DNA of 64,000 bases from Straminergon stramineum (lineage: Eukaryota > Streptophyta > Bryopsida > Hypnales > Calliergonaceae): the NCBI GenBank assembly GCA_963920665.1, contig OY987266.1, positions 14,699,001-14,763,000 on the forward strand. The letters are read 5' to 3'. Numbering within the stretch: the stretch's first letter is position 1; each line of letters starts with the position of its first letter. The notes under the pieces were generated by a model. That model searched no databases. It worked only from the letters and a program-made list of their open reading frames with translations, and was not told the DNA's origin. A program made the position numbers and the translations under genes. Of this stretch, positions 7,386-62,879 are shown one piece after another.

Positions 7386-7480
7386 TAGTGATTCTTGGAA
7401 GGCTTCGATCGCTCTCCTTCACTTGCGCAGCAGGTCCAGGCTGCCCGATTTCCAGAGCTGACCCCGCGAACGGCTCGTCA

Positions 7481-15596: not shown

Positions 15597-15600
15597 TTAA

Positions 15601-16470: not shown

Positions 16471-16474
16471 TTAA

Positions 16475-19015: not shown

Positions 19016-19021
19016 CATAAT

Positions 19022-21295: not shown

Positions 21296-22120
21296 CCCCT
21301 AAATGTCCAAGCCTTTCCAAGTGTGTTTTGACTATGAAAAAAGAGCATAGTCTTATAGTTATCTCCAACCCCCCAAAATATATTTTTTTCAAAATCTAAC
21401 CATGTGGATGTCTAAAGAGCTTGCTTACTAGTATACGTACCAATTTTGAGAGCAAAATTGCATGGAAGTTGTGAGATTATAACCAAAGAAATGTGCATTT
21501 TCTATTTTTAGTATGTTGCCCCTCCCCACAATGTTTCAGAAATTTGCATATATGATTTTATTGAGATTGGAGCTAGGTGACATGACCAACTAAAATTTTT
21601 GTTAGCACACTAAAATGGATTTCCAAAAACCTTAGATTCAAATGAAGAGCTATCAAACTCATTACACAATCCACCTTGCAATTGTTGAAATGCAATTTTT
21701 TTTATAAGTAGAAATTGCAATTAATTCCAAATCAACATTTTCATGTATAAATTTTCAATGGTGAATATCATGAAAACACTTTACTCTTTCCATTGGGACC
21801 ATTTTCAAAGAAAATGGAATAGTACAATTTTTTAGATCTTAAATTAAGTGAAATTGGCAAGCTTTGCTCAAAGGAGTCAAAAGCCAAGAAATCAAGTAAA
21901 ATTTTCAAGCTTTACTCTTCCACTAAGATACATATATGACTTTGAGGACCTCTCAAAAATTCAGTATTTACCTTTTTTGTGAAAAATAAAAAATTTCAGT
22001 AGTTAACCTTTGAAATTGCCCATAAAAAATTTTAAACCGGTCACAGGAATCTAATTGCTCGTCCCCAAATGATCCTAAAATCTCAAACGGACCATATATG
22101 GTCGGTTAGGCAGTTAGGGG
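21296..22120. mobile_element. piggyBac-type miniature element, copy B
   Basis: TTAA at 21292-21295 and 22121-22124 flank CCCCTAAATGTCCAAGCC (left) and CCCCTAACTGCCTAACC (right, complemented). 825 bp, AT-rich, no coding capacity. The interior does not clearly match the other copies. Confidence 0.75.
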
Positions 22121-22124
22121 TTAA

Positions 22125-26788: not shown

Positions 26789-27757
26789 ACCGCTCATTGC
26801 CGCAGGGGACCAAAAGTGTCCTCTTAGAATTTCAAGTTCAATTGAAAGTGCTGTAACTTTTGCATCCGATTTTCAAATTCAATAAAATTTGTTGTGAAAT
26901 TTGAGCTCTCTCTTCTATTTTGTGTGGAAAAATTTTGAGATTGATCTAAGATGTACTGAGTTTTGGGGAGCCAATCGAAGTTCACAAGTTCAATTTGAGT
27001 TCACCAAAACTGCATTTGATGGTTACAACTTCGGGGGCTTGTATCTCCTTCATTCAATGGTTTTTTTCAATAAAATTTGTTGGTTTATGTTCCCCTTTAA
27101 GTCTAGTTATTGTGAAAAAAAATTTATGTCAATCTAAGTTGATTTGAATGTTTGGGAGCAATTCGAAGTTCAAAATCTGGTCATTTTTGGATTATGGTGA
27201 ACTTTGGCGACTTGTTTCTTCTTCATACATCGTTTGTTTCCAATAATTTCTTTTGTAAAAGTTTTGCATACTAGTCTAGTTTGTGTGGCTAAATTTTCAT
27301 ATCAATCCAAGAAGATATGAGTGATTGAGAAGCATTTTAGTAGAAGGAGGTTCAAGTTTTGATGTGATTTTTGCAACTTCTCTTGTTATTTTTTGACATT
27401 TCAAAGCCATTTTGTAGACACAATGAGTTAATTGAATGATATTTTTTTCAACGATGTGTTTGTATGCTAGTTTAGAATCACTTTACAGTTTAAAGTTTTT
27501 CAATTGAGTAGGTTTAGAAATTGAATTTCACCCCCAAATGTGTTTCTAAGAAAATTTCAGCATCCTTTTTCAACACTAAAACATTATAATCCTGCAATCT
27601 ATGCAGTCAAATGACTCCAAATTTGATTCACTTCATCTACAACAAGTAATTACAAGATTGTACTGTTGAGATCTCTATAACTCAATGACATTTACATCTA
27701 TAACACTTCAAAAGCAATGTTGTTTTTGAACTTGTTCAAACCTTAGGCAATGAGGGG
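26789..27757. mobile_element. piggyBac-type miniature element, copy C
   Basis: TTAA at 26785-26788 and 27758-27761. Ends are ACCGCTCATTGCCGCAGG (left) and CCCCTCATTGCCTAAGG (right, complemented). The C-T-C-A-T-T-G core is closer to the ends of the 43272-48357 transposon than to the CCCCTAAA copies. 969 bp, no coding capacity. Confidence 0.7.
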
Positions 27758-27761
27758 TTAA

Positions 27762-31631: not shown

Positions 31632-31635
31632 TTAA

Positions 31636-32759
31636 CCCCTAAAGTCCCTAAAGTCCTCTTTGACTCTTGAAGGTTCAAACACATATCTATGATCTCAAGT
31701 TTTGGCAAAAAAAAAATTAACTTCTTTCAAGGTACAAATACTAATTAGATTTGAAATATATACTCAGTAATTTTTATTTCAATTAGTGCCCATGAGCAAA
31801 AGCTACACCATAAAAAGCCCAAAATAGGCAATTGCAAGCCACAATAAAACAAAAAAAATTTGAAATTCATTTTTCATAATTTTTTCTTGAAAATTATATT
31901 TTTGTCTATGTGGAAAGATTTGATTCATTCTATTTGGATAAGTGATTTGAAAGTTATGAAGCTTCTTGTTTTGTGGGCAATCCTAACAAATTTGTGAAAA
32001 AAGAATAAATCGAATCCATTTATGAATCAATTTTAACAATTTAAAAAAAAATTGCTCAAGGCTTAGAGTTTTTTTTTAAACAATCTCACCATTGAGATTA
32101 GTATGTTTCAATTCTATCTTAGAGTTGTCAATATTTTTAATTTCCTTCTATCTCATACCTACTTCAACTTAAGAATTTTTTGAAGAAGGAAAATGGGGGG
32201 GCATTAATTTTTTTCACGAAATCTCAACTCAATTCTTCAATATAAAAAGAATTTAATTCACAATTTGTAGTACAAAAAATTTAACTTAAGAGGATTCATA
32301 GCCTTGTAATCTAGTCAGCTAGGTGCAAAAAATTTATTTTCTTCCCTTTAAATGCTTACATCTTGTGATCAATATTGTCAAAGTTTTTGATATTTCTTCT
32401 AGATATTCTCATTTTAATGTAGTGTTAGATCTCTATGGTTGGATATGCAAAAAAAACATATGTTTAAAATCACTATAAGAACCCCATGTTTTAGGTGACC
32501 ATCCCAAATTTTTTTAAATATATTTTAGATGACATCCAATACAAAACTCTTGTTTTTATGTCAACAAAAACATTCAACATAACATCAAGATGTTATGTTG
32601 GACATTATTGTTGACATAAAAATAGAAGTTTTGCATTGGATGTCACCTAAAACCTATCACCAAAAAGACATGTTTCTTCTAGTGAATTTGTGTTCTTTGC
32701 ATTAGAAATGCTTGTTTTGAATGTTTTTTGACCAAAAAATTATGTGCAAACATTAGGAA
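31636..32759. mobile_element. piggyBac-type miniature element, subfamily 2, copy D
   Basis: TTAA at 31632-31635 and 32760-32763. The left end is CCCCTAAAGTCCCTAAAGTCC; the right end is degenerate (CATTAGGAA-TTAA). The interior aligns with the reverse complement of 55883-56753, sharing ATTTTTGTCTAT, TTGATTCATT, CAACTCAATTCTTCAATA and TCAAAGTTTTTGA. It is interrupted by a CACTA-type unit at 32471-32684. Confidence 0.75.
32471..32684. mobile_element. CACTA-type miniature element nested in copy D
   Basis: Starts CACTATAAGAA and ends TTTCTTCTAGTG, with AAT on both sides. The interior hairpin (TTTTTATGTCAAC, GGATGTCACCTAAAAC) matches the 14195-14413 copy. It splits the piggyBac-type element, which resumes after it. 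Confidence 0.75.
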
Positions 32760-36745: not shown

Positions 36746-37614
36746 ACCCTCCACCAAATTGCATTGCACAGCTCATTTATTTTGTGTATGATACCAAGAT
36801 ACCAAGAGTCAATGATACACGCAGACAGTTTGTAATTAAAAATTGAAGTTGCATGCAATAGAGGTTTTTGAAATCAACTAGCCCAGGATCAAAGTGAGCA
36901 TGTAATTCTGGTTTTCTTGTTAGTGGCAGGACCTACACCTTGAACTGCAGGTATCATAGTGAGGTTAGAACAATCTTTGATCCATTTCTGGGACTTCCAC
37001 TCACCATGTAAAGACTTTCCTCCATAATAGTATCTGGTATTTGTAATTAAAATTCATGCAAAATGTGATGAATTTTGTATGTCTTAAAGAAGTTTTTGAT
37101 AAATTTCATCCACATTTTCTCCATCTTTTTCCTAGTTTGATTTACTGGTACTGTAGTCACCACCAAAGAGAGGTGTAAATTCCGTTTAATTTGATTTTTT
37201 TTAAAAGAAAAAAAGTGAGGTATGATTTGGGCAAAAATTTGTCAGAGATACGGTATCAAAGCAGGCAAGAAGAAACCAATCTGGGCGACAGGGCCTCTAA
37301 TTAAGTTACTGCACTGGCGAAATGAGCTTACCTTGCCTTGAGCTTTCAGCAATGTTCAGTTATTGAATTGCCAGCAGTTGTTGGATTCGGCACTGATGAT
37401 TTCAGTGTAGGCCTATCTTAACTTAACTGACAAGAAGACAGTCAAGGCTTTTCCTATCTCTGTCCAGGATCTTAAGGAGCAATCATTTGGCTAAGGAACA
37501 GGGGATATTCATTCTCCAAGCACAAGAGGGAGTCAGAATCTACAAAGCTCGTACATTTTGGTTCACTCAAAGGCAGTTTTTTAATTTATGTTTAAGTTTT
37601 TCATTTTCATTTAG

Positions 37615-38541
37615 CCCCTAAAGTTTGATGGGTAGGTTTTCACTGAAAATGCTCCAAAACTGCCATTTTTAGTATGAGTACCAAATTTTTGAAAAAAAAC
37701 TCTTTTTGACACATGTAACCAAAGGATGTTGTAGTATGCTGCCTTGAGAACATGTGGTAAAAGTTTCTGAAATTTACACTATGAAGATTGCAAGATATAA
37801 GCATTCAAATTCACTGAAATCATTTTTTGGGCCCAACAAAAAAAACAAGGCAACTGCACTTCACAAGCTCACTTTTCTATGAAAAAATGTCCAAAATGGT
37901 GGTGCTTCTTTGGATTATTTTTCCTAGATAAGTTGGCCACATGTTTGAAAATTTTTAAATCATTTGGAATTTTACAACATATAGGAAAAAAATAGTAAGT
38001 AGATAGTACTAGAAAACGATTCAAAATACTAAATTGTTAAGAATTTAATTATGAAATTAAAAAATGCCAATCCCAATGGTTGCAATGTTTCCAATAAAAA
38101 AATCTACATCCTATGGTTTTATTTTTTTCCAAAAGCATTAAAAATTGAGTAAGATAAAGGACTTTCAAGTTTATTTTAGAGTAGAGAATCTATAACTGTT
38201 GGCAAACAAAAAATCCTCTTAATTTTTTACTCATTGATCAAAATGGAATGATTCCAAGTTTTCCAAGTCTATGTAACCCTAGAAAACCAATTTCTAATTT
38301 TTGTCCCTGAAAAAAGTGATTTTTTCTTATCTACACAGATTGTCCATTTATGAAAAAAGTAGCATATTAGGCCATAATTTTTTACTCATATTTCCAAATG
38401 TCATGAAATTTAGTGCAAATGAAAGGTATTCCTTGACCCCACCTTCTTTTTAAATTTGGGCCAAAAATATGGAAATCTCCAGTCACACATATTTGCCCAA
38501 AATTGCTATGTAGCCAAAAAATGCATGCTAGTCTTTAGGGG
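37615..38541. mobile_element. piggyBac-type miniature element, subfamily 3, copy E
   Basis: Flanked by TTAG (37611-37614) and TTAA (38542-38545). Ends are CCCCTAAAGTTTGATGGG and CCCCTAAAGACTAGC (complemented). The interior aligns with the reverse complement of 52523-53447, sharing CAAAACTGCCATTTTTAG, GACACATGTAACC, CAACTGCACTTCACAAGC and TCCAAAATGGTGGT. Confidence 0.78.
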
Positions 38542-38797
38542 TTAAATGCTTAAAAGCACCAACAATAATTAGGGAGCACCAAGCCTTAAGGAAAAAATTG
38601 AAGAAATATTAGATGATGACACCAAGTTGTTCCGATTTTTGAAAAGAATTTGGATGAAATTCATCCAAATATGTGGATGAAAAGATAGTTTTGTCCAAAA
38701 CATAGATGAATACTAAAATATTTGGCTACATCGTTTTCTTCTATGTTTCCACTTCAGCACTTCTCCTAAAAACAAAAGCATGCTCGAAGGTGGAAGG

Positions 38798-43128: not shown

Positions 43129-44410
43129 GTTTCCATAAGTATTTTTGTTGTCTTCTTTTCAAAATGCTAGCTTCACTATTGAACCAAGCTAGCAATCATT
43201 CTCTGCCCCTCAGTCAAAAAAATGTACAAAGTTATCCAACCCAAGCAACATGCGCGCCAAAATTATGTTAACCCCTCAATGCCCCTACATATTTATTCAC
43301 GGAACTTGTTTTCCTTACCCCTGTTTGGTCTAAAGAGTATAGTATGCAATGTAGCACATATCTCAAGGATGCACCATTGAATTGCAAACTACACTTTGTG
43401 AGGAATCTAGCGATCAAATACTTTTTGAAATCCACCGCATGGATTGAAAGCCTATAAACTTTGATCTTTGGCAAGTATAGTCCCATGAATGCCTGTTTTG
43501 AAGTACCTCCAAATTGTAGTCGATGAAAGTTGTAGCTGTGTAGATTGGATTGACCCCAAAATTGGATGCATACTAGATGACAAAATTATGAGTACTTTGG
43601 AAAATTTTCAGGGTGGTTGGACATGATTCGTAAAAAAGAAAGCCCCATGAGTGTGGATCACTTGGTGAAATCAGAAGAGAGGGCCGGGGGAGGAGACTTG
43701 CACGGCTTTTGTTGTATAGGTCGCTTGACCAGCTGTGCAGTGTCTAGCCAAGTACCACTTGTTGAAGTTGTAGGACCCTCCCATGCTTCCCATATGGTTT
43801 GTAGGCGATTTGACAGGATAATTGAGTAGATACAGTAGATTCCATTGTGCACAATTCTTAGAAGTATCAATTTCAAGTACAAGTTGTTTTGCAATAGAAT
43901 ACTATCACGACATGAAGCAAGAAGACTAGGTAGCTAGTTGCAAAGTGAATTTCGAATCGGTTGAAGTAGTATCAACAAAAAAGATTGGGTGTCTAAAACA
44001 AAATAAAGTTTCAAGAAAATGAAGTGTAATACCGAAATTGCCATTAGTTACAGGTGTAAGAAAACGTGGCCTCAATTTTCCAAAAAAACCCAACATAGGC
44101 AATCTAAAACTATATTGGAATCTCAAAAGAAACCATAACATAGCAATTGAACTACTTACTACCAACAAAACTGACTGCAGTAACGACCTAGGACAAAAGT
44201 ACTATAGCCATGGAGCATTTGATAAAAGCACAAATTTGTTGCAACCAAGTCGGTGTTGCACATTCCTGGGCCAATTGCAACATTGCTTGACCAACTCAAG
44301 CCCGCTCCAAATTCAACCACCTGTCCAACATCCAAGCTACTGCGAACAAATATAGTGAAGTATTAGAGTCAATGAGCTTGTCGCATTGCCCATTTCTTTG
44401 AGGAGTGAAC

Positions 44411-46818
44411 CTAGGAGAAACAAGGTTCATCGCATAACCAAACTGGTTCACTGGGTGGGCTACAAGCTTGACAATCTTGTTGTTTCTTTTTTTTGCAACG
44501 CTTACAACGATGAGGCCACTGATTCCCACTATGAATACTATGGTGTAGCTCAGTATTCCAAGCATTGTGTCAAGAACAGGTTGGAGGCAACGGGAAGAAA
44601 GGTTCGATAAGCTCCATTGCTATAGTAAAGTGGAACACCTTCTGTCCACACAATCGCTCATTACGTGCCTCATGGTCATGGAGATAAAGACGCCATGCAT
44701 TCTAGAGTGAGCTATCAAATACAAAGAACCACACCTTGTGCCACCATTTATGTGACCAAAACTGACATGTGTAGTCCCTCGCATTTGGTCAACCAGATCT
44801 ACACCTCTTATATTCGCCTCATACTCAACTTGTTGCAGACTTGTAGCTTGGGCAAACCACACCCCATTCCCCCAAGGGTGAGCAAAAGCGATATCATCAT
44901 GGCATGGGTTCTTTGATGTACTTAGGAAGGTGACAAACTTCGAATCATACCAAGTACATGCTGACATTCTACGACTTTCATGCATTGCCCAGAACAAGGT
45001 ATTCTTAGGATGCTCACCTCGACGAAATCCACTCAAAGAAGATGGCATGCCCACCTGGTTTCCTTTCATTGTCCTTGTGGTGAATATACCTCTATGCAAT
45101 AATGATTCAAAAAAGGATGGGGATGTAAAGAAGTTGTCTACAACAACTATGTGTCTTTTGTGGGATAGCCCATGAACTAATTGAGAGACAACCTACTGTC
45201 ATTGGCCAACCTCTGTCACATCGTTCTTTCCCAAGTATGGTATCAAGTTGTAAATATACCGGGATGGATTGCTAATGAGAGCCCAAACCTTTATGCAATA
45301 ATGTGTAGGCTTCGCAGGCATGGATTGGTGAATGGGACTAAAGTGGCCTCCATATGCAATCATTATTTCATCACATGTAACGACATGCTCCAGATTCCAT
45401 AAGTGTTGGCTTCATTCAACAAATCCCTCTAGTATCCGTTGTACCTTACCGATCTTGTTACAACCAGGTTCCTTATTCTTTGGAAGCGTTTCGTTGTTCA
45501 CGCAGTGGAAGCAACAAAGTATAGACTCGAAACGATCTCTAGTCATGACTTTTGCAATTACAAGACAACGCCAAAATGACCCTTCTTTCCAATAATCTTG
45601 AATGGTTGGTGTTTGCTTCAAGGCCATGAGAATCCCTACGCCTATCCAAGCTCTAAATTCAACCTCGGTGAGCGGTACCCATCTTAGTCCTCCATTCATG
45701 TACTAAGATTGGTACTACGTTATTGCTTGCCTAGGGTAGAAGTTTGTTTGTAGCACCATGTCACATATGACATCATTGTCACAAAAGAGACAGAAGAAGT
45801 AATTGGCCTTCCTCTTATTTCGTGAAAACCGTTGGGTAGGCCCTGCATGCGATCTTCGAAACTGGTTCCATTCTCCCAACATGTTAGTGTACTGCTGGCT
45901 CTAATTCGCTTTGGAGTAGCACTCCCGAATTCCCTCTATAGTAGCAGGGTTCTCGGCATCCAATTCAATAAAGTGCCGATATTCTTCAAGGTCAAATGAT
46001 CCACTTGACTCACTTAGTCTATCAGATCTATCATTAAATAAGTCCCAATTTGAGTTTTTGTCATTAGAGTCATTACCTGCAAAGTCTTCGAAGTCTCCTA
46101 GCCAAGATTGATCATTTGAATCCGATGACGAATCCTCGTCTCCAAGTTGTGCAATGTCATTCACCAATTCAGGGTCCATAGTGACGGCATGAACAGTGAC
46201 ATAATCCTCTAAAATGGATCCATCACATCCTTGCATTTCGGTATCCGATCTCTTAAGGGCTTCTTGGTTTTGCAATGAATCCACACTCCCATTTGGTGAT
46301 CCTTGATGGGGAGGAGATAATGCTTGCCTCCATTAGCCTTGCATCACTCTAGAAGGGTGCCGCTAGTCTTGAGTAGAACAATCGAGACAATTCACTATGT
46401 TCCACCCTATACCTCCCTCGAACTCAACACCAAAGAAGTGACGATCTTCTTCCCAATAAGCGTGTTGCACTTCTCCTACAAAGTGTTCTAGGCCTCCATA
46501 CTTTGTTGGATCATATCCCAACACTTCCAACCGTACCCATACTTTCTCTGGGTAGCTCCTACCATCAGCTTTGTTTGGGCCTCCAAGAATGCAACAGATC
46601 AGTGTTGCAGTTGTCATATTTGTCCGATGTGTTGTAGCGTGGCCGGTATGATCCTTGGAACTCACGCGCTTGAATTGGGAACCTTCTTCTACGTTGGTAT
46701 TTGAGGTAAGCCACATCTCTGTTTGCTCTAATCTTGCTAATTGTGAATCGAGATTGACAATAGTCCTTCCTTGACTAGAGGATGTGGATCCTTGCCTTGT
46801 TGTAGAGCATGGATCCAT
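44411..46818 (-). pseudogene. piggyBac transposase relic (DDE_Tnp_1_7 type)
   Basis: Cut-and-paste transposase, decayed. From 46818 down to ~44776 one frame is readable, broken only by stop codons (at 46363-46365, ~46333-46335, 45901-45903, two near 45710-45725, 45412-45414, and two near 45195-45205). Visible in order: a region with HFVGEVQHAYWEEDRHFFGV (~46440); an acidic Ser/Asp-rich stretch as in piggyBac N-termini (~46000-46160); LGEWNQF; then EFRAWIGVGILMALKQTP and IQDYW (~45620). The catalytic Asp contexts follow: TCDEIMIAYGGHF (codon 45370-45372), VVVDNFFTSPS (45136-45138) and RGVDLVDQM (44797-44799). TMKGNQVGMP is present between the second and third. Near 44776 the frame shifts by one, after which WSHKWWHKVWFFVFD and a C-terminal Cys-rich zinc-binding-like domain (RCKRC, DCQAC, LCDEPCF) are read to a stop at 44411-44413. 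No sign of splicing. The family call is firm; the original start is not. Confidence 0.88.
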
Positions 46819-46961
46819 ACTACTCTTCCTCCACTCATGGGTGTATACTTGGACACTTTCTGGACTTCATATTAGTAGTGAATGTTGGCCAAATCTGGCT
46901 CTTTGACTTCGTAGCCAAGGTGGTGTAACGTCATTCGGGACGATTGGTTCTAGCACCCATC

Positions 46962-47994
46962 TCATTGGAGCAACATCTCGCCTCTGATCCCTCCCTCGGC
47001 TTCAGCCTTGTCCCTTAGTTGTGGCAACATTGACAGTAATCCTAGCATCTCCTTCGCTTGCAATTTCAGAAACCCCTCTACCCTTTCTATGACCCCTATG
47101 TTTGCCGCCCCTTGATCTCCCTCCCCCCTCCCTTCATCTTGCACGGGCACATTGTCATGGACCTGCTCCAATAGTGGATTCTCCAAATCCCTCCTCTGGA
47201 GATTCACCAATTTAGAAGGTTGGAAATTATTGGGCAATGGACTGAATTCTAACCCCTCTCTTTGGTGCAAACCTTGGTTTCTTAGTGATTCTTCTGTGCG
47301 CAACTCCAAGATTCCTTTGAAGGCAATCAGTGCTTGTTGGAGCTCGTAGCTTACTCGGACCTTCAACCATGCTCTTGCCTCTCGCCTCGCTAGTCCCTTC
47401 ATTACAATCAAATCTTTTTGGCCACTGGTGCTTATGCAAGAATTCGTTCACTTCCTCAGGAATGCCGTTAGGGTGCCCTTCAGGAAGTTGTTGTGTCTAG
47501 CCAAGCAAGACTCCAACTTGCCTTCGAAATAAATATCACTAGTTCCGAATACTAGGATCCTTCGACCAAGTGTGATTCCTCTGTGGTGGTAGAAAATTCA
47601 AGAGAAATTGTTCATTAAGGCAATTCACAACTTTCTAGGCTACTTCTACTCCTTTCCCTTTGCCCAATGCTCAATGATACAAGAAATCCATCACCTTGAA
47701 CACCTTTTCTTGAATAATCCGCCCCTTGTTCAATGCAGTAGTCATTGTCGCAGCAGTGGTGGAGACAACGGATGACCCAAATTCAACACAAACCACGAAA
47801 TGCATTTGGCAAGAGGAGTGGAGGGGCACACCTCTTTCTATGAGACCATTGTGGTGCAATGAAGCCGGACCTCTCCACTTCAAGCATTCATGAACCCTTC
47901 TAAACCTCATGGTGTACTGTGTAGTAGCCATGTCTAGGAAATGGACCAAAACATGATCCAAACTAGTGCGCATCCACATCCAAGCCACTTTCAA
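46962..47994 (-). pseudogene. Upstream open frames of the piggyBac element
   Basis: Two minus-strand frames, 47994-47671 (107 aa) and 47411-46962 (149 aa), lie between the right terminus and the transposase. The first shares the transposase reading frame; the second does not. The 149-aa frame is charged and Gln/Leu-rich (LEQVHDNVPVQDEGRGEGDQ). They may be an N-terminal extension, a second element-encoded protein or chance. No domain is recognised. Confidence 0.3.
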
Positions 47995-48361
47995 TCCACT
48001 CCTCCTCTTACATGGTGCTTACCGCATCACTGTGAATGAGTGCAAATACAATACTCACAATGTTAGCGCAAAGAGGTCGCGTTCGAAGCAATGGATCCGA
48101 GGTCCCTTCCACACTCAACTGCGAGTCACCAACTCATTCCAGTTACTTTTCGGACAAGACCCACCAACTGCTTGTCCTCGTTTTTGACCCTCGACACCTC
48201 AAAATTCCCATGGTACTGAAAAATGCATGATTACTTAAAACGCCTCTAATTCTAGAGCCTTCTTGATTTACATCTAACGAGTTGCGAAGATCTGGACACA
48301 TGGGTTTACTTTTTAAACTCGAAGGGGCGTTGTTTGAGCTCCTTGGGTGTTGAGGGGTTAA

Positions 48362-50509
48362 GGGACGAGAATGACTCCATTTTGAAACACAAACCTAAGG
48401 ACAAGGATTCAAGCTAAATAACATGTGGCACTTCAAAATTTTGTGGGCAAATTGTACACTCTCACTAATCCAGTACAAAAAAATTTCATCTTGAAATGTA
48501 TGTTTTATTCCCTTAAGTAGTAACATATTCTTCTTTAATCCCTTAAGATCCGAAAATATCACAAAGAATAACAATTTAGAACTCAAAACATTCATAACAT
48601 TCTTCTTATCATAGCCATACAACACTTTAACCACAACATTTGCTCCAAATAATTAATATTTTCTAGACAATTGAATTCACTTCTAGTTGAATATCCAATC
48701 TTTCATCTTTTAAAATCCTTTTTGTTGTTCATTATTTAACCACTAAAGGACCAAGTGTCCGTTCAATGTATACAAGAAATCTCAAGTAAGTTCTTATGAA
48801 GTTGTTTATGGTTGGATGTTCCTTAAATTTAGACCCAATGTGTAAACATATAACCTCCTTTGTGAAAAACTAATTTTTTTTCAAATCATGTGCCCAAATC
48901 AAAAGTTATTCTGCCTTGAAATTTTTGGGCACCTTGAGTAATTTAGGATATTTTGGGAATCTTTTGGAAAATAAACTTATCAACTTTTGAAATTTGGCAT
49001 ATATGTAACAAGTAAAATATGGCATACATTTGTCCAAAAAAAAACAAATTTTAGTCCTCAAGTCAAATTCTAAGAGGAATCAAACTTTGTTAGCTATGTT
49101 GGGGTAGTTTCAGGAAAGAACATTTTCTTCTAACTTCAAGTCCTATTATCTTGCAATTTGTGAAGTCCAAATTCTTGAATTTTTATCCATATATTCCGAA
49201 TGTTTGTTTCTAACTTTTCAATGTTCGTATTCCTAATAAAAAAAATTCTTCATCAGAGAAGAAATCATCAAAAAATGACTAGTGTATTGTCAATTCATCT
49301 AATGTCCTTGCAATGTAGGATGATGTAGAGTAAGCTAGGCTCCATATTTTCTTCTAAATTTTTTCATGAGTGAACTTAACATCATATACTTACTATTGGT
49401 CAAAATTCTCATTTTCTTGTATAGCAAAAATTTTACCCCTAAAGGGCCCGAAGTTTGCTAACCATGTTTTGCAAGAATGAAAAAAAAGGTTTTTTTTCTC
49501 ACTCTTCAAACATTATAATCTTTCAATCCACATGGTTAAATGGGATGAAATGTTTTCTACACTTTAGTAAAATACTTTACTTCAATTTTGTATAGTTCAA
49601 ATTTTTTTTTTAAGTTTCAATTTTCATTATTGAACAAAATTCCCCAAAACCGCAGTTTTTGACAATGTCCCCCCGGAAAAAAAACACCTTGGTCCTTCAG
49701 GCATTAAAGAACTTTTTCTTTCAAAAACCAATTTTCCCAATAAAATTTCTTGAAGTTTATCATTCTAGAAATATTTTTTTGTTGAACATGATGTTGAGCT
49801 ACAACAAAAAAATTGGGGTGGGGTGCGGTGTATATGCAAGGTCAAGTCCATCGTAATGCATGAATGTTAAAAAAAAAAGACCCCTATTCTGAGCTTGATT
49901 AATCTATTTCTCTACACCACTCCTAGCAAATTCAGGGCCTCTGCTTGCAAATATGAACTCAAAATTAGCAAATTTTTTCATGCCTTGCAAATGAAACGTT
50001 CCTGCATTTTCCCTTGCCTTGAGTCGTTGCACTACTATACAATTGACCACCATGGGTGGAAGAATCATGGCCAAGGCTTGATAATTGAATGATTTCCAGA
50101 GGAAAAGGTGACACTGACTGAATTCATGGGGAGCCAGCTAGTGGGAGGCTCCATAGCCCTAAAGTAAGTTGAAAGTAAGTTGAAGAATGTTAAGTTATGT
50201 AAAATAGGTTATTATAACTTATCAGTTTAGTTGCCATGAGTGGCTAAAGAGAGTGAGTGACTGAGATTCATTGTGACCACACCCACTGAGGGTCCTCCCA
50301 ACAAATGTGAGGTGGGTTGGCACCAAGGACAACTTTCCGAGCTTGAGCATCCGACAGAGTGCTCAGGAAGGTCCGCCTCGCATCATACCTAAGTTAATAA
50401 GTTATCATGGATGATGGGCAAGGGCAGGGCGGGGCGGGGCAATCACGCAGGAGGAGGAAGACATGGACAGCTGTCACCAGCACCAGCCTTGAGCTCCCAA
50501 GGGAGGAAC
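48362..50509. other. No gene; degenerate element ends
   Basis: TTAA-CCACTAAAGGACC at 48736 and TTTA-CCCCTAAAGGGCCC at 49432 look like left ends of further piggyBac-type elements. An internal CATTATAATCTTTCAATCCA (49511-49530) matches the motif shared by the other copies, but right ends were not found. 50100-50470 is GC-richer without a recognisable frame. Confidence 0.35.
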
Positions 50510-50513
50510 TTAA

Positions 50514-51151
50514 CCCCTAAATGCCCAAGGCCTGTTTGGAGCTCCTTGAAATTTGCTCTAAATTGAACAAAAAGTCAACATTTTCATACGTTGTACCAAT
50601 TTCTTTTGAATTTCAACTGTACAAAGTCAAACTAGACATGTTAGAGATCACATAGGAAAAGAAAATATAACAATATCACTTATAGATCGAAAGATTATAA
50701 TGTTTGATCATGAAGGTGTAAAAACTGTGAAAATTTTTCAATTCACTTTTTGCATGTTAACTCTAAAAAGTTGGTCACTAAAAAAATATGAGGTTATAGG
50801 GCCTAGCATGCACAACCCCATTCAATTTACAGTTTTTCAAAATCTATTCTATCATTTTTTTTAAATGAATTTCTAATGCGATTTTGCTTCCAAGATCTAG
50901 TGTATTTGAGGCTCATTTTCAAGAGCCCTCAACACTACAGGAAGTCAAGATTGCAATGGGCATCCTTACACTAAATCTTCAATAGAAAAATCATAATCCT
51001 TTATTTTTTAGATCAACTTTTTGATCCTAAAACTAGACTTCAAAAAGAATTCTCCAAAAATATAAACTACTAATGATAGCAATTTGGTTGGATTTTACTT
51101 AACTTCAAAGTTTTCCAAACACCAGAATCTGGTGCCTTGGGCATTTAGGGG
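50514..51151. mobile_element. piggyBac-type miniature element, subfamily 1, copy G
   Basis: The cleanest copy: TTAA at 50510-50513 and 51152-51155, and both termini begin CCCCTAAATGCCCAAGGC. 638 bp. Reverse-complement sister of 15601-16470 without that copy's nested insertion, so it approximates the unmodified subfamily. Confidence 0.88.
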
Positions 51152-51155
51152 TTAA

Positions 51156-52518: not shown

Positions 52519-52522
52519 TTAT

Positions 52523-53447
52523 CCCCTAAACGCCCAAACTGCGTTTTTTGGCAACATGGCGATTTTGGGCAGCTCACTACGAATGGAGTTTTTCTTATTT
52601 TTCTTTGAAATTTTCACACAGCATGTGCCCGAAGAGTATCTTTAAGACCCAACAATTTTCATAACTTTTGACTTCATGGTTAAAAAGTTATTGCATGATA
52701 TGTAATTTTCAGTGCTCCTCGGGCAGCCCAAAAATTTCTTAAAAAAACACTTTTTTAAGAAATAAAAATTTGAAATTGATTTTCTAGATTTATATGTACA
52801 TGGAAAGCTTTGAATCATTCCATTTTGATTTATGAGATGAAAGTTATGAGGCGTTTTAGTTTGCGGGCAGTTTCGGATCCCCTACTCTAAAATAAACTTT
52901 GAAGTCCTTTATTTCACTCAATTTTCAATATTTTTTGAAAAAAATAAAATGATAGGGTGTGTATTGTTTATTAAAGCATTACAACCATTGGGATTAAAAA
53001 TTTTCAATTCCATAACGAAATTCTTCACAATTTAGTATTTTGAATCATTCTCTACTTCTTTGTACTTACTTCTTTTTTCCTATATGTTGTACAATTTCAA
53101 ATGATTTGAATTTTTTCAAGCACATAGACAACTTGCCTTGAAGAGTGAATCCAAAGAGTAACCACCATTTTGGAATTTTTTTCATACAAATGTGGCCTTG
53201 TGAAGTGCAGCTGCCCGTTTTTTCACAGGGCCCAAAAAAGGATTTTTGCTAATTCAAACACTAATATCTTACAATCTACACGGTGGAAAATTCTGAAATT
53301 TTTTCCACATCTTCTCAAATAAGTTTAGTACAAGATCTTACGGTTACATGTGTCCAAAAATGTTTTTTTCCTAAAATTTGGTACTTGTTCTAGAAATGAC
53401 AGTTTGAGAGCATTTTTGGTGAAAACATAGTTGAAAACATTTAGGGG
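52523..53447. mobile_element. piggyBac-type miniature element, subfamily 3, copy H
   Basis: TTAT on both sides (52519-52522, 53448-53451) rather than TTAA. Ends are CCCCTAAACGCCCAAACTG and CCCCTAAATGTTTTCAAC (complemented). 925 bp, almost the same length as its inverted sister 37615-38541. Confidence 0.78.
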
Positions 53448-53451
53448 TTAT

Positions 53452-55878
53452 ACTGTAAATTCTAAATAATTTTAACTCCATTTCAACAAAAAGTGTTGGA
53501 AATTTTCTCTAATTGGTATATTTTGACTTCACTATATGAAAAATGATAAATACGTGGATCATTGTTTAGTGAATTTGGGCATTTTTTAAAAATCTGAATT
53601 TTAGCTATAATAAAAATGAGAACTTGTTAATTTGTAGCCCAACTACCCAACTAATGAAACAAAGCTTATCAAGGTTAATTTGTATGTCAATTTGAAATTT
53701 TGAAAAATCCCTTGGGGTATATAGACATGTAGTGCTAATTTTCTAATCTTATAATGATATAGGAAATAATTTTGTATGATGAAGTTCTACACTATAATAT
53801 ACATATAGTGTAATTTTTAGATTTTTTAAACATATTTGGTCATGATATGAATTTTTTAAATTTTCTTCAAAAAATTCACAGTAATTTCAAGTTTTCACAG
53901 AAAAATATGAATTTTTTAGGGCTCGTAGAAGACACATAATTACATAATTAAAAAATAAATACAACAAATTTTCAATCATATATACTTGCAAAATGGGAGC
54001 ATACATAGAGTTGAACTTTGATGTTTGAAAAGGTACAAAGGCCTTTCCTTTCAGGGTTAATCTTGACAAGACAAGATTATGACCACAACATCAACTACTT
54101 CAAATTAAAGTCCTTCATTTTGTGTCCTCCCATATATAAATGATCAATCAAAATTTAGAAATTGTGATCATCACATCCGTACAATTGGACATAACATCTA
54201 CCATTATACCAATCAATATTTATCAATAAAGATTAATATTTGGTATTTGATTGAATATTAGAGATATTTGCAAGAATTATCTTCTTAAGTTTAGAATGTG
54301 TGATTCTAATTGTAGTGGCTTTTTCAAATCTTCATTGATTGTACTCTTTGAGTTATTGAACATTTATAAAAAAAATATTGAAAATCTATATTTTACAAAT
54401 GTTAAAGAAGTAAATATAAGAATCTACAAACATTTGAACGAATGAAAAGAATGAAGTTTATGTATGTATTGGACATAGTTGCATTCATTCTTTTTTCCAA
54501 TTTTGGAAGCCTAGTAGAGACCAATAAGCTATAGACTTTGCTACACATTGCACCAACTAATACAACCCAAATTGATGGAATAGTATAGGAGTTGTGTTTT
54601 AGATTTGATGCAATTTTAAACACATGGAGAAAATGGAATTGAAGTCATCATTTAACAATTTGACTTGAGACAATGACAACTAGTAGAAAAAACAAAGACC
54701 ACAAATTTCAACATGATTGTTGAGGTGCACAAATCCCTTGATCCTTTGAATATTAGGTTCAAGGTTGCAAAGATGAAACACATGTTCTAATTTTGGGAAG
54801 GAATCAATTTATTTGTATGCAAGTAATGCACTATGTAATATTGGATCATTAAATTTTTTTGAATAAGAATTCAAATGCAATTAAAAAAAATTGTTATGTG
54901 ATTAATTTAGGCCACTGAAGGAATTATAATGGATTATTGTGAAACCATTCGCAAACCCATTCCTTCAATTGGTAAGCACATCATTCTAAAATGGCAATCT
55001 TAGATCATTCAATATTTCTTATTTTGTAGCACCACCAATAATATATCTTGAACAATTTTAGATTTGCATTCTACATGCATACAATAAGTAAATTTTCAAA
55101 TACAATTAGGTTCCAATTGGTTTTAGAAGAACCTACCACATAAAGAGATTATAACCCAAAACACGTTGTGCAATTTCAAATCCCCCTAATAAAGGTATGA
55201 AGTCACTAATATTCTTAATTTAAAAATAAATAAATTTACAATTATTTGCACATAGAAGAGGGCCAAGATGAGGCCTCATTTGATCTTTTGTAATTTTTCT
55301 CTAGTATTTCTTTTACCTTTGAAATTTGGAAGTTTTGAATTCATATTTGAGATCAAGGATGTCAAAATTTGTTAGAAGAAGTCTCAAAGTACAAAATTCA
55401 CTCCTCCACAATAAGGTCCAAATTTTTACATTCATTTGCCTATTGAAAAATTAGAATTTTTGCACTGTAAGTATAAAAAGACTAGTTGTAGTCTTGCTCG
55501 AAACATATTGCACTTCTCTATCTCCACACCAAAAATGAGACCAAAACACAAAATTCAACCTCCCATCTACACTAAATAGGGTTTTTAAGGGGACCCATAC
55601 TAATTAATCAAAATTTCACACTATTTAAATATCTACCTTTATTGTACATTAGTAGTTATTGAAGTGTCCAAGGGATGTACATCATGTTTCAAACATCTAC
55701 AATTTTCCACAATAAGTCCCTTTAATTTTTTGGTCCCCTTAATACCCTTTTTTAGTAATCTACCCCTCCCACATCCACACCCTTCAACTCTTTCTCTTGA
55801 AACCAATTGTTTATTAGATACCCCTTTTATTGAAGATATGTAGCTCAAGGGTCACTTGTTCTTTCTCATAGCATTATT
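53452..55878. other. Gene-free AT-rich stretch
   Basis: Very AT-rich with short open frames only; no paired termini found. Confidence 0.45.
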
Positions 55879-55882
55879 AACT

Positions 55883-56753
55883 CCTAAAGTCCCAAAGCCT
55901 ATTTTCATCAAAAATTGCTCAAAAAGTATCATTTCTATTACAATTTTTTTCTTATGATTTTTTTATAAATCTATCCATAGAATCCTATACTAGACTAACA
56001 TAATTACAATGTGTGGAAGAAATCTCAAAAACTTTGAATACATAGATTGCAAGATATAAGCATTTAAAACGAAGAAAATAATTTTTCTTACACCTTGCAT
56101 TACTTTATTATAAAACTTTGAATCTTCTTAGCTTTCTATTGAAGAATTGAGTTGACAGTCTAGGAAAAAATCTGAAAACTACACTTAATTTTCATTCTTT
56201 AAAAATTTGTTAAATAGGAGTAGGTATAAGATAGAAGGAAAACTAAATTGTTAATAACTCTAAGCTAGAATTGGAATACACTACCCACAATGATGAGATT
56301 GTTCTAGCAAAAATAGTAAACCTTGTGGAAGTTTTCATTTTTGAAATTTTGAAAATTGAGTTAAAAAATTATGCCAATAAATTATTTTTACAAGAAGTTT
56401 TTACATTTGCTTGCAAAAATGAAGCTCCACAACTTTCACATCACTAATCCAAATGTAATGAATCAAAGTTTTCTATATAGACAAAAATACAAACTATGAG
56501 GAAAATGGTTAAAAAAATTAATGTAAAGTTTTTGTGGTTTTCTTTTGCTACCCAAAGACCTCTATTTTGTATCTTAAAATGGCATAACTTTTGCTTTTGG
56601 ACACCAATTGAAATAAAAATTATATTCCCAAAAAATAAATGTATTTTTCTATCTTAATAAAAAAAATTCCAAAACATGGCCTCTAAAATTGAGATCATAG
56701 TAACATGCCCAAACTTTCATTTGTCTCACAAGGGGACAATGCGAACCTAGGGG
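55883..56753. mobile_element. piggyBac-type miniature element, subfamily 2, copy I
   Basis: TTAA at 55879-55882 and 56754-56757. Ends are CTCCTAAAGTCCCAAAGCC and CCCCTAGGTTCGCATTG (complemented). 871 bp, the uninterrupted inverted sister of 31636-32759. It ends ~0.9 kb upstream of the invertase TATA box. Confidence 0.78.
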
Positions 56754-56983
56754 TTAAACAATGTTGGGCAGGTTCTTTTTTCTTTCTTTGAATCTAGGGA
56801 TTGTCCTAATGTTTTCATTAAAAGATTGTATGACAACCTTGGTGGTATCACTGTAGAATGAAATTTTTTATCCATTTAGCCATTATAGATTGAATTAAAG
56901 TCACTCAAAGGTATCTTGGTAGAAGGGTATACCTTCCATCCAACACATGAGATTAATCCCCTTAGAAGTCAAGTCCTTTCTTG

Positions 56984-57669: not shown

Positions 57670-59582
57670 AAGGATATCATCCTACAAGGGTATCGTCCAT
57701 GGAGGAGGGCCGCTCGTCTCCTCCCAACAAAGGCCCATTCATTTCGCATCAGCAGCTTTTTTTCTTCTGGAAGCGCGCTGCTCTGCCTCCCGCTCCCGTC
57801 TCTCTTCCACAGGCCTCAACTTGCCCGCCTTGCCCCCTGCCATCGCCACTGATCGTCCCGTAAGTCATATATCATCTTCTTCTCCTTGCCGTGGTTTTAG
57901 TTCTGCTGCTGTTTTCAGTCTCACATACTGCATCGTCTCACCTCCTCACTACGACATTCAAAAGATACGAATAGTCCTTCTCTCGTTCATTCCCCGCATC
58001 TTCCCCGCCTTTGTTGAAGCTTTCCACATCATGGATTCGACCGATTTCAGTTGTCCGCTCGTTCCGATCTCATTGTGGCATTTTTAAACCTGAAAGGTCT
58101 TAATCGAGGGATGCTTCTTTGTTTGCTTCCGGTTTTTTTAATGAAGTTGAGACCTCTATCTTTAGAAATCTGTAGAAATAAATTCAGGCGGTTGTTTTGC
58201 TGCTGGTTTAGGTGGAGATCAGGACGATTCGTTTCGTATGTCGTTGTCGTTGTCGTTGTCGTTGATGGCTTAGGTTTCCGATAGTATGTGGACTTCGATG
58301 TCGGAAGTATCCGTAGTGTTTTGCTTCTGCATTATAGTTGTCTGTTACAGAATCGAAGAAGCGCCGTGTTGATGAAATTTGGTCTCTTGGAGATGACTGA
58401 ATTGAGTACGTGGACTGTTGGAATGTGATAAGCTTTTAAGTGAATGGAGTGGTGATTATGAACGGAAGTTAGAGGGTGAAAATTCTGTAGTGCGCAAGTA
58501 GTTGTAGTTCTTTCGAATTGTTGTCGGGGTCTGGAAACAGAGAGGTAATTGAATATAGCGGGGGACCGGATGACAGCTCCTTTACACTCGATGAGCGGGG
58601 ATAATAAATCGCCTTTGGTGAGATGTTGGAGATGCTAATTTGAAGTATTACAATACAAAAGTATCTGTGGGTCGGGAGTCGAAGAGAGAGCGTTTGTATT
58701 GGACTAGGTAATGGGAAATGGACGAAAAATGTCAATCAAAGAACTCCCAGTATCCTGTTTTAGGGTTTTAGGGTTTGTTGTTTTGACAAGCACATTGTTT
58801 GTGTTCTGCAGAATGACGAAAATGGCAATGCGAGAATTTCATTGGCAGTGAGACAAGTGCTCGCTGTACCTGCCGTGGTTTCATCTTCCCCGCTTGGTTT
58901 CATATCTGCTAGCCAGAAGGTACCTCTTGGTCACAGTATTCTCGTAGGTGTCTTTGGTGTTAGCATTGTGTAGTTTTGCTATTCCCTATTCTGTTTCAAC
59001 CATTATATTTTGAAGTTCATGTTTCTCAAAGCATTCAAATTCGTAAATCTTAAATTATGCAAAGTTGCACTTATTCCATGCAAATTTTGTTATATTGTAT
59101 TATAAGCATATAATACATCATTTTACCTTCAAAATAAGCTTCAATGCTTAAACTGATGACCCGTGCATATTCTACAGGAGCTGCCTCCCAGTACTCCGGA
59201 ATTTGAGTTTGGCGTTATTGCAGCGGGAAACACAGAATTGGCGACTCCTTCTGGAGCCTGAAGCGGTATCAACAAGGACATGCTAGACAGGGAATTGGAA
59301 CGTCGTTGAGAGAGAAAAGCTTGTATGTATTGTGTGGAGTAGAATGCAAGTCTGGAAGCGGCTTGGAATTAGCTAGCACAAGAAGGTCTAGCAACTGGGG
59401 ATTAAAGACTCTTAGCAAGGTTACCTGAAAGTGACATTAACCTATTGTGGTAAGACTTTCCTTCAAAAATACCTCATTCCACATTAAGGCACTTAAGGTA
59501 ACCGGTTCAGGATCTACTATATTTCTACCTCTACATTACTACGGGATCTTCCATTTCCTAACAAATTCTAAGGAGGCAATCA
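57670..59582 (+). other. Spliced 5' leader of the invertase gene (inferred)
   Basis: Plausible leader exons are ~57670-59, ending 57859 before GTAAGT; 58812-58919, between CTGCAG and GGTACC-type signals; and one starting 59178 after TCTACAG. An ATG at 57699 opens a short frame (MEEGRSSPPNKGPF) that would end at a TGA inside the second exon, i.e. an upstream ORF. A different frame stays open for 63 codons across the second and third exons without an ATG. Exon boundaries are judged by eye. A (GTCGTT)4 microsatellite at 58241-58264 and a telo-box-like TTTTAGGGTTTTAGGG near 58759 lie in the first leader intron. Confidence 0.45.
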
Positions 59583-62500
59583 ATGCCATTCGATATGTAT
59601 AGCTTTCCAAGATCTCTTACCCTGGAGACTTCTTCGGAGGCACTTAGAAAGACCAACGATACCTACGGATCTGGTGACAACGGTAGCATTGATTACGAGA
59701 GTCCGATGGAAGTCAGGCCGCGTCAAATTGAGACTCATCACTCCCTTGATGAGAGGTCTCTCAACGATATCATTTCTTCGGGTCTCTCGTCACCACGTCC
59801 TCCTCGGCAGTTGGAGACCGTCAAAAGCTCCGAGTGCTTGGAGGCGCTGCTGTCTCCCAGCATTCGATCCTCAGCCGGAACTCCTCGTGAACATCATGCT
59901 TTTGAGCCTCATCCAATGATCGGGGACGCATGGGAAGCGCTAAGAAAGTCGGTGGTGTTCTTTCGGAACAAGCCGGTAGGGACCATTGCGGCTTTGGATC
60001 CCACGGAAGATTCACTCAATTACAATCAGGTTTGCTATTCATTAAATATCCTCTTTCGTTTTTTCTCTAAACGTGTTGATTGGGTTTGTTAAATGTACAC
60101 GGAGACATAGTGTCTCGGTGATCTCATGAATAATACGCTCGGGTTGTGAACCTATTAATTATGCATAACTATCTCTCTCCGTGTGCTACACGTGTTGCAT
60201 TGGTGAAGAATTTTTTCGTGTCTTGTCAAAATTTCTCTTATGGAAAGAATTTAATATGATGGGGTCCATGCGTCCTTTGGTTATTTATAATCAAATGGAT
60301 GTGGAACTTGAGCTATCCTATAAATTATCTCTCCTTCCGAATCGAATGAAAATGTTCAGCCGTGCACGTCGAAATTTGCTCAAACTCGAGGGGCTTGTGT
60401 TGGTCCGGTCGATGCTGTGAATGGTAGAAGTTTTGGCGGCCATGCTCTCAACTGTTATTGTCTTTTTCTGCGATGTGTCAGATTCTAGTAAAGCAGCTCG
60501 ACTTGCTTTAGACCTGTTTCTGTATAATCCATATACCCACCCAACAACTTTTTAGGAAATAGTGTGTCGGTGATTCAACAAACTTCAGGATACTCGCAGG
60601 CGAAAAGTCTGCTTGGAAAATGTTATTGCATCTTTGTGTTGCGTTTGTTTCATATTTCAGAATCTGACACAATCTGTTTTCAGGTGTTTGTGAGGGACTT
60701 TGTACCTAGTGCCTTGGCATTTCTTATGAATGGCGAACCGGAAATCGTGAAGAACTTCTTGCTGAAAACTTTGCGTCTTCAGTCCATAGAGAAGCGTATC
60801 GACTGTTTCACTTTGGGTGAAGGTGTTATGCCTGCAAGTTTCAAGGTAATTATTGTTTCTGGCAACGGTTCATTTTGCTTCCATCACCATGAATCTGAAG
60901 CTGTGTATCACTTTAGGAGAGCTGTTTCTGCTGAAATGTTCTTCGAACCAGTTGTGGTCTGTTGCCTACTGATGAAGTTGTTCGTGCAGGTTCTCCACGA
61001 TCCTCTTCGTAAAACAGATACGATGATCGCCGATTTCGGGGAGAGTGCAATTGGAAGAGTCGCCCCAGTAGATTCTGGATTTTGGTGGATCATTCTTCTT
61101 CGTGCTTACACAAAGTCTACTGGGGATCACACGCTAGCAGACATGGCGGACTGTCAAAGAGGAATGAGGCTAATTTTGACCCTGTGTCTCGCTGATGGAT
61201 TCGATACTTTCCCAACCCTGCTGTGCGCAGATGGCTGTTGTATGGTGGATCGTCGGATGGTAAGTGTATCCGACGCTCTTGTGATGCCATTATTGGGAAT
61301 TCCAGCTAAATCTGAGATAAATATTCTACACTCGTTTGTGACCATTGTATTGATGGGAAATCTATGAATAATCTGGGCATTTATCGTCTTTTTCCTCTAC
61401 AAATCGTGTGTACTTACAGAGCCTTTACTTTTCTAGATCGCATGTGCACTGTGGATGTTCCAACCAGGTTTCTTAATGATCACTTTTTTACAGGGCATTT
61501 ACGGTTATCCGATTGAAATTCAGAGTTTGTTTTTTATGGCTCTGCGGTCTGCTAAGAGTCTTATCAAGGCCGAAGGTGAGGGTAAAGAGTTTTTAGAGAG
61601 GATTGACAAGCGACTTCACGCCCTAAGCTTTCACATGCGCGAGTACTTTTGGTTGGATCATCAACAGCTCAACAATATTTACCGGTTCAAAACTGAGGAA
61701 TACTCGCATACAGCAGTTAATAAGTTCAATGTTATTCCGGATTCTATTCCAGATTGGATTTTCGAGTTCCTGCCATTGAAGGGCGGTTTCTTTATTGGGA
61801 ATGTTAGTCCTGCTCGGATGGACTTCCGTTGGTTTGCCATCGGCAATTTTATGGCTATCCTGTCTTCTCTTGCCACTTCCGACCAGGCGTCCGCTGTCAT
61901 GGATCTACTTGAAGCTAGATGGGAAGAGCTTGTAGGTGACATGCCTCTTAAGGTTTCCTACCCCGCTATGGAGGGTCACGAGTGGCGAATTGTCACGGGA
62001 TGTGACCCGAAGAACACTAGATGGAGTTATCATAACGCTGGATCTTGGCCAGGTATAGTTTACTTCATTTTTTGCGATAATTGGTTTTCTTTTTCTTTTT
62101 CTGGTGCACTTGATTTCGCCCTGTTTCGGTGTGTCCAAATTCTTCGCACTACGCTTTGAGTAAACTGCTACGTGCTTAGATAGTCAAAAGTGATCGCTTT
62201 CATATCTATAAGAGTTGGAAATGTATCATTTAGGAAGCTTAAAAGGAAGATCAAGTAATTTATAAATCGAAAGAACTCTTATCCTCCATTTTTCAACAAT
62301 GGAAATATGTTTTGAAAGCTACTTAACTAGCTTCCAAAGTGGAATTTCTATTTTAGTTCATGCACCTTGGGTTCGGAAAGCGAGTGTTGTACTCATTTTG
62401 GGTGGGGTAGTTCCTACTGTTGCAGTACTTATGAGTGGGTGTCGTCGATACTGGCGATTGGAACCTTGATATTCCTCACTGCGACTAGGATAACATAGTT

Positions 62501-62879
62501 TCCCTGGAATTCTGGAGCCAAACTGCACATTTGGGGTTCTGATTTGCTTCATGCCATGTGTTTATTAATCGTGTTGTGTGCAGTTATTCTTTGGATGCTG
62601 ACAGCAGCGTGTATTAAGGCGGGCCGGCCTCAAATTGCAAGACGGGCTATTGAGCAGGTGGAGACCAGACTATCTAGGGATGGCTGGCCGGAGTATTACG
62701 ATGGAAAGTTGGGCCGATACATTGGAAAGCAAGCTCGCAAATTCCAAACCTGGAGTATTGCTGGTTATCTTGTTGCTAAGATGATGTTGGAGGATCCTTC
62801 ACACTTGGGGATGATAGGACTCGAAGAGGACAAAAAGATGAAACCTTCTCTCACTAGGTCCGCATCATGGACAGCTTAA
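59583..62879 (+). CDS. Alkaline/neutral invertase (GH100), 5 coding exons
   Basis: Hydrolyses sucrose to glucose and fructose at neutral or slightly alkaline pH. Coding exons 59583-60029, 60684-60845, 60990-61259, 61494-62052 and 62584-62879 give 577 aa with GT-AG introns, close to the usual ~550-570 aa of cytosolic-type members. After a ~120-residue variable Ser-rich N-terminus come family blocks in order: [71 protein letters not shown] (its Asp is the expected general acid), [58 protein letters not shown] (holding the expected Glu), [11 protein letters not shown], and [18 protein letters not shown]. The C-terminus [10 protein letters not shown] has a Ser-phosphorylation-like motif. The N-terminus lacks a clear transit peptide, so cytosol is likely. 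All blocks are intact, so the gene looks functional. Confidence 0.95.

Follow-up and report, generated by a model that had tools for sequence, protein, structure and literature searches.

Elements of the piggyBac kind are known chiefly from animals; a piggyBac transposase binds the ends of its element, cuts at TTAA and reinserts at TTAA. We describe here a decayed piggyBac element at positions 43268–48361 of a 64,000-base stretch of a land-plant contig (the whole analysed stretch, hereafter the window), together with a swarm of surrounding miniature inverted-repeat transposable elements (MITEs). We propose, with a probability of roughly 0.8, that the element is a decayed piggyBac in a land-plant (likely moss) chromosome and that a transposase of the same kind likely moved the short elements around it.

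Among described systems, Trichoplusia ni (T. ni) piggyBac (PDB 6x67/6x68) and piggyBat (9c0f) belong to the same transposase family as the relic by profile match. Both resemble it in the TTAA target, the Cys-rich domain and the asymmetric ends (relevant passages of PMC7351741). According to the same passages, a dimer of the T. ni Cys-rich domain binds a palindromic 19-bp repeat (bp 17–33 of one left end); in the solved complexes, this binding is confined to one end, and the native enzyme requires asymmetric ends in cells. In contrast, the relic, which is 5.1 kb long, has a conserved site ~175 nt inside one end that is not clearly palindromic.

The closest precedent for the swarm in the literature covered is provided by coral piggyBac-type MITEs (CMITEs) with AmiPB1, as presented in passages of PMC2872659. 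CMITEs are similar in forming TTAA-flanked families with a conserved inner region, and the tips of coral family III (CCCCTCAGTGTCCG; Table 1 of that study) are close to the tips found here and alike in their start. CMITEs are ~100 bp long with a 75-bp inner region, the origin of which was not found in the autonomous element. In contrast, the relic, with its transposase, also contains the inner box described below, and the host is a plant.

As such, piggyBac has already been recorded from plants. In the relevant passages, it is listed for land plants (Table 2 of PMC4438587), named for Rosa rugosa (PMC8213826) and for plants (PMC10794571), and counted in the fern Ceratopteris, with 1230 copies but 0.00% of the assembly (PMC6890710); piggyBac-type MITEs are named for angiosperms (PMC10004981). 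These repeat tables and reviews concern the same superfamily as the relic and give counts or names only; the plant piggyBac passages of the five sources do not describe ends, a transposase or an inner box. A moss piggyBac with ends, or its MITEs, was not described in the literature searched, with subscription journals mostly outside reach. The T. ni element has already been applied in rice; in the moss P. patens, it had not yet been tried as of 2017 (passages of PMC5505980). The present locus turns a line in a plant repeat table into an element with defined ends, a transposase and likely cognate MITEs.

The piggyBac relic

The features of the element, as located in the window, are as follows.

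43268..48361, minus strand (that of the transposase): piggyBac relic including the TTAA duplication (ends, Pfam matches and shuffles)
43268..43284, plus strand: left end, TTAA and tip CCCCTCAATGCCC, the box-bearing end (inverted-pair and box search)
48345..48361, minus strand: right end, TTAA and tip CCCCTCAACACCC, top box match 13/25 (inverted-pair and box search)
44369..46326, minus strand: transposase relic; tblastn similarity to protein P0001 begins at ~46326, probable end TGA 44371
44381..44779, minus strand: C-terminal part with the Cys-rich tail, in a shifted frame; 62/136 aa identical to protein P0026

The element spans 5,094 bp including the TTAA target duplication. The flanking TTAA and matching termini reported in the initial annotation were found at 43268–43271 and 48358–48361, so that the relic carries the target duplication of the piggyBac superfamily at each flank. 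The tips CCCCTCAA are identical in inverted orientation (TTAACCCCTCAATGCCC and TTAACCCCTCAACACCC), and 15 of 17 nt match when TTAA is counted. They are inverted and begin with C; however, the fourth base is C, in contrast to the CC[C/T]T of the superfamily. The length of the tip pair alone was unremarkable among the 63 inverted pairs found. In the 2-kb flanks of the transposase, TTAA with an 8-nt identical inverted pair arose in 13 of 3000 dinucleotide shuffles. Between 250-nt halves, the G+C content steps clearly at the right border, from 0.44 to 0.31; the left border lacks a clear step (0.36 vs 0.38). The right TTAA is separated from the start of similarity to relatives by ~2.0 kb.

The DDE_Tnp_1_7 profile (PF13843) matched three separate stop-free pieces, with E values of 1.3e-16, 4.1e-6 and 5.2e-14 and scores of 61.2, 26.8 and 52.7 bits, all exceeding the cut-off of 22.4 bits. 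The hidden Markov model search that the initial annotation had proposed thus bore out its identification. The pieces share one minus-strand frame from 46866 to ~44780, interrupted by stops. The three Asp contexts named at the outset were located at codons 45372–45370 (TCDEIMI), 45138–45136 (VVDNFF) and 44799–44797 (RGVDLVDQ), and align with Asp in most of the relatives covering those positions. The span first assigned to the transposase (44411–46818) was about right: similarity to relatives extends from ~46326 to 44381, and the gene probably ends at TGA 44371 because P0026 reads on past TAG 44413.

The aligned part (46326–44381) contains nine in-frame stops, at 45903, 45717, 45705, 45414, 45201, 45195, 44704, 44572 and 44413, and two further stops (46365 and 46335) lie upstream of it. 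The frame also shifts once, by one, near 44780, and the remainder, including the Cys-rich tail, continues in the shifted frame. The Cys-rich C-terminus that had been noted is real, though one frame off from the rest: it aligns with P0026 across the frameshift, Cys positions included. The Pfam profile zf-Tnp_2 alone was not significant on this tail (E 0.37). With nine in-frame stops and one frameshift, this copy is a dead relic. We confirmed a complete-ended piggyBac in a land-plant contig, as had been claimed; the ends and the host stand, but the copy itself is dead.

Relatives were few in the first protein search, which gave two matches at E <=1e-3 among 1832 candidates; the best was P0001, a protein truncated at its C-terminus, with 48% identity and 86% query coverage. 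Starting from a three-row alignment, a second search yielded 49 matches among the 7994 candidates scored. The profile of the relic, P0001 and P0002 matched the solved transposases piggyBat (E 8.2e-43) and piggyBac (E 1e-34), which were not found with the relic piece 44620–45192 as the lone query. The structure model of the relative P0005 also matched piggyBat and piggyBac (Foldseek E 5.4e-27 and 5.6e-30).

A transposase tree was constructed from 47 rows, consisting of the relic, the two solved transposases and 44 of the 50 proteins P0001–P0050. The partial proteins P0009, P0011, P0013, P0047, P0049 and P0050 were omitted by hand, although a few others of comparable length were retained. The relic falls in a supported set of 13 rows (100/95), the other rows of which are unnamed, nested in a 20-row set (100/97). 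The five named animal rows (piggyBac, piggyBat, Nilaparvata, Dufourea and Schistocerca) are all on the opposite side of the tree. A land-plant member is thereby placed in a supported piggyBac clade without any of the named animal rows compared. The under-described plant piggyBac lineage suggested in the initial annotation holds as far as this separation is concerned (100/97); however, plant piggyBac had already been listed. A pattern search matched 125 stretches in viral contigs and 34 in genome contigs of bacteria and archaea, and none of these was confirmed as a related locus.

Two other parts of the relic were considered. The N-terminal stretch 46363–46866 was considered as an SH3-like domain, perhaps common to P0005 and P0012, and this candidate was rejected: Pfam gave no match at E 1 for the stretch, and a profile comparison was not significant. 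In structure models, 149 of the 167 residues of the N-terminal piece from the window had a predicted local distance difference test (pLDDT) score <50, as did all of residues 1–187 of P0005. P0005 and P0012 carry N-terminal extensions of ~240–290 aa that are alike in look, with the P0005 model unsure over the first 187 residues. Upstream of the transposase, 46962–48018 is a G+C-rich, fairly open stretch that may represent a second gene; its sole Pfam match was below the cut-off (LPD5, E 0.19), and codon scores revealed no clear coding signal.

Short elements with similar ends

The initial annotation missed the swarm of similar short elements around the relic and the inner box that they share at one end. 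Seven further elements of 0.65–0.97 kb have TTAA-type flanks and similar tips and lack a frame of 110 aa; three more are weaker. They are listed below, with strands written so that the box end comes first. Offsets refer to the inner box described in the next section.

15597..16474, minus strand: MITE A, 878 bp, TTAA/TTAA, family of B; box mostly lost (16/25)
50510..51155, plus strand: MITE B, 646 bp, TTAA/TTAA; the first 24 nt of the ends match at 22/24; box offset 176
21292..22124, no strand given: MITE C, 833 bp, TTAA/TTAA, tips 7/8; without box
48736..49707, minus strand: MITE D, 972 bp, TTAA/TTAA, tips decayed (4/8 mutual match); box 23/25 at offset 180
37611..38545, plus strand: MITE E1, 935 bp, TTAG/TTAA; box offset 176, placed by homology with E2
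52519..53451, minus strand: MITE E2, 933 bp, TTAT/TTAT, family of E1; box 19/25 at offset 176
55877..56757, plus strand: MITE G, 881 bp, TTAA/TTAA, tips 5/8; box 15/25 at offset 169
31632..32536, minus strand: partial MITE G2, kin of G; clear end at 31632, inner border estimated
2926..3695, minus strand: probable MITE H, 770 bp, TTAA/CTAA, tips 6/8; box 18/25 at 3542 (offset 154)
27599..27761, minus strand: end F, TTAACCCCTCATTGCC; box 20/25 at offset 163; partner end uncertain, with 26596 as a candidate

The relic and A, B, C, D, E1, E2, G, G2 and H together cover 12,847 of the 64,000 bases (inner border of G2 estimated). None of these nine short elements overlapped an open reading frame of at least 110 aa in the stop-to-stop list. 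Five of them (A, B, C, D and G) are flanked by TTAA on both sides, and F and G2 each have one clear end.

The tips are more frequent than expected. The 12-mer of the relic, TTAACCCCTCAA, occurs at 28 window sites with <=2 mismatches, vs 8.6 expected, and none of 100 shuffles reached 28. A longer end consensus gave 17 sites vs 0–3 in 20 simulations, a result that is partly circular because the consensus was refined on those same matches. Tip pairs with identical 4-bp flanks, 150–1200 nt apart, numbered 3, vs a mean of 0.12 and a maximum of 2 in 100 simulated windows.

Comparisons between copies support the borders. A and B, in opposite orientation, show 80.5% identity in a 365-nt alignment and 83.9% in one of 174 nt, and are coterminal exactly at both TTAA. 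E1 and E2, also opposite, share 74% over 917 nt in an alignment that is complete at one end and falls 22 nt short at the other. G and G2, a less complete family and again opposite, share 69% over 710 nt, 76 and 136 nt short of the ends; in G2, the alignment halts ~136 nt short of 31632. The box-side end of G2 was not found near 32536, and a box-like site at 32370 lies <=2 nt from the position that G would predict. Beyond the shared ends of the copies, the adjacent 40 nt match at 9–12 of 40 positions, which corresponds to chance. C and D are single copies in the window.

An inner box on one side

Similar ends and a mostly similar inner box are the reasons why the short elements were likely moved by the same kind of enzyme as the relic. 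The box of the relic is located as follows.

43442..43466, plus strand: inner box GATTGAAAGCCTATAAACTTTGATC of the relic; begins 175 nt from the left TTAA and ~0.9 kb past the 3' end of the transposase

Eight ends, including that of the relic, carry a box of ~25 nt lying 154–180 nt inside, on one side only, in families the other sequence of which is unrelated. The 25-nt consensus was derived from B, D and the relic. Its five best sites in the window are in the same orientation at offsets 176 (B), 180 (D), 175 (relic), 163 (F) and 176 (E2); a site at 55441, with no end nearby, ties the fifth at 19/25. The boxes of E1, G and H were added through position or homology. When one family at a time was left out, the box site of each family ranked 7th–11th of 127,912 positions, behind 6 or 7 training sites, 0–3 others and, for E1, also its sister copy. 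Since the box is located past the 3' end of the transposase, it is not the promoter of this gene.

Between families (21 pairs, 7 families), identity counted from the tip was 0.79 in the first 12 nt, dropped to 0.42 in the following 12 and was ~0.25–0.37 from there to the box. In box-aligned sequences (the same number of pairs and families), it was 0.74 at the box and 0.22–0.33 from 30 nt beyond its start. These values bear on the possibility that the box is a non-functional leftover of common descent, all of the elements being old derivatives of one ancestor, a possibility that competes with a role for the box and leaves the rest of the proposed explanation untouched. The copies are old (69–84% identity between copies), and identity is also raised (0.42–0.61) in the ~40 nt adjoining the box towards the tip, both as expected from shared ancestry. 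However, from 150 to 50 nt before the box, identity is 0.24–0.34, approximately background, while the box retains 0.74. Neutral descent does not predict diverged surroundings with a retained box, which weakens this alternative; we regard it as unlikely, though not negligible.

We instead predict, at slightly better than even odds, that the box is a recognition site of the transposase. The transposase would attach to both ends, use its three Asp to cut beside TTAA and reinsert the element at another TTAA. The box, located ~175 nt from one end only, would serve as a second recognition site, probably for the Cys-rich tail, and would distinguish the two ends from each other. A one-ended box shared by the transposase-bearing element and otherwise unrelated MITEs would fit a recognition site of the T. 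ni type, moved inward. The prediction of a distal recognition site is testable. If it is true that the Cys-rich tail binds the box, this would indicate how deep into an end piggyBac-type recognition can extend.

A palindromic structure of the box was considered and rejected: the dyad scores of the eight sites (5–7/9) are in the random range, and 240 of 4000 random 38-mers score >=7. A second box-like site at 49158 (minus strand) lies inside D, 550 nt from the D end, and is perhaps the mark of a nested element.

Points weighing against the proposed explanation

Several observations count against a common enzyme for the relic and the short elements, or against the box. Tips, ends and box were all found and refined on one and the same 64-kb window, a single locus. 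The relic tip CCCCTCAA and most MITE tips CCCCTAAA are one base apart, and no clear similarity between the relic and the MITEs was found beyond the tip and box. Because of this base difference and internal dissimilarity, the relic need not be the direct parent of the MITEs. The box is missing in C and largely lost in A, in which it is partly kept (16/25). The consensus alone is weak in E1, in which the best match of the end (14/25) lies elsewhere, and in G (15/25); both boxes were accepted by position. With the relic left out, its box scored 16.1, three sites outside the model list (32370, 49158 and 23141) scored higher, and 2 of 30 simulated windows held a higher maximum. As the score alone is exceeded elsewhere and in simulations, the box of the relic is convincing only by its position 175 nt from the TTAA end; such a score at the right distance from either relic end is expected ~3e-5 times, by arithmetic from two simulated maxima alone.

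The flanks and tips are also imperfect. The flank pairs of E1, E2 and H depart from TTAA/TTAA. TTAG and CTAA departures have been reported for animal piggyBacs, and TTAT is absent from that list, in the relevant passage of PMC10813416. Tips are decayed in D, G and H; otherwise, the excess of the 12-mer is in keeping with a tip match to the transposase-bearing element.

Some Sola-type elements use TTAA. The short elements may accordingly belong to an unrelated TTAA-using superfamily, only the relic being a piggyBac, with the tip alike through convergence or chance. The base difference between tips, the lack of clear internal similarity, the boxless MITE C and tips with four C rather than an exact CC[C/T]T are all in line with this reading. 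However, the box of the relic agrees in orientation, and nearly in distance (175 nt), with those of seven other ends from six families, which speaks against this reading. Moreover, TTAA with CC[C/T]T tips is described as the hallmark of piggyBac, and a coral piggyBac-type MITE family begins CCCCTCAG (passages of PMC2872659). We consider two unrelated superfamilies to be improbable.

We infer that a piggyBac transposase cross-mobilised the short elements. The relic would then be a dead relative of the autonomous partner of the swarm, and the source of the transposase would have been a working relative. More tentatively, and at odds that we place just short of even, early land plants may keep their own piggyBac lineage with two-part ends, consisting of a TTAA-CCCCTMAA tip and a box ~175 nt inside one end, and this lineage may have filled a moss genome with MITEs retaining just these two parts. 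With the two-part signature, moss genomes can be searched for intact plant piggyBacs that may still be active.

Host genes and other features of the window

Two host genes were recognised.

8906..10410, plus strand: MYB gene, two pieces with Myb_DNA-binding (R2R3 type by eye)
59562..62879, plus strand: alkaline/neutral invertase gene, used for host placement

Among the best 120 of 3308 matches, the invertase (spliced by eye) was 89% identical to P0051 and 83% identical to two Sphagnum sequences, followed by score by Riccia (79%) and Diphasiastrum (78%); some Selaginella matches reached 80–81% at lower coverage. In a tree of 36 rows, with 35 relatives chosen from these 120 matches, it grouped with P0051 and the two Sphagnum sequences (99/98). 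Judging from gene similarity, we place the host with confidence among land plants; the invertase gene suggests that it is likely a moss near Sphagnum.

A chimeric contig, or a piggyBac from a contaminating animal, fungus or protist, has to be weighed here, since the nearest transposase relatives are unnamed proteins without host assignment and the G+C content of the element is 0.43, vs 0.34 and 0.33 in the 10-kb flanks. However, the relic has elements with similar tips and box to either side, spread between 2.9 kb and 56.8 kb, and the same contig carries the plant MYB (8.9–10.4 kb) and invertase (59.6–62.9 kb) genes. This interleaving makes contamination unlikely, and a single junction error cannot yield it; we judge either origin to be very improbable.

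Rfam and tRNA scans of the window gave no match. Two other repeats were observed. An inverted pair (5443–6097 and 6784–7439) of ~656 bp, has 98.9% identity and internal repeats of ~220 bp; its two arms resemble each other much more closely than the piggyBac-type copies do. A fold-back element at 19013–19696 is ~71% self-complementary over 701 columns and has a related partial copy at 34441–34732; near them, the ends at 19714 and 34398, respectively, weakly resemble the TTAACCC type.

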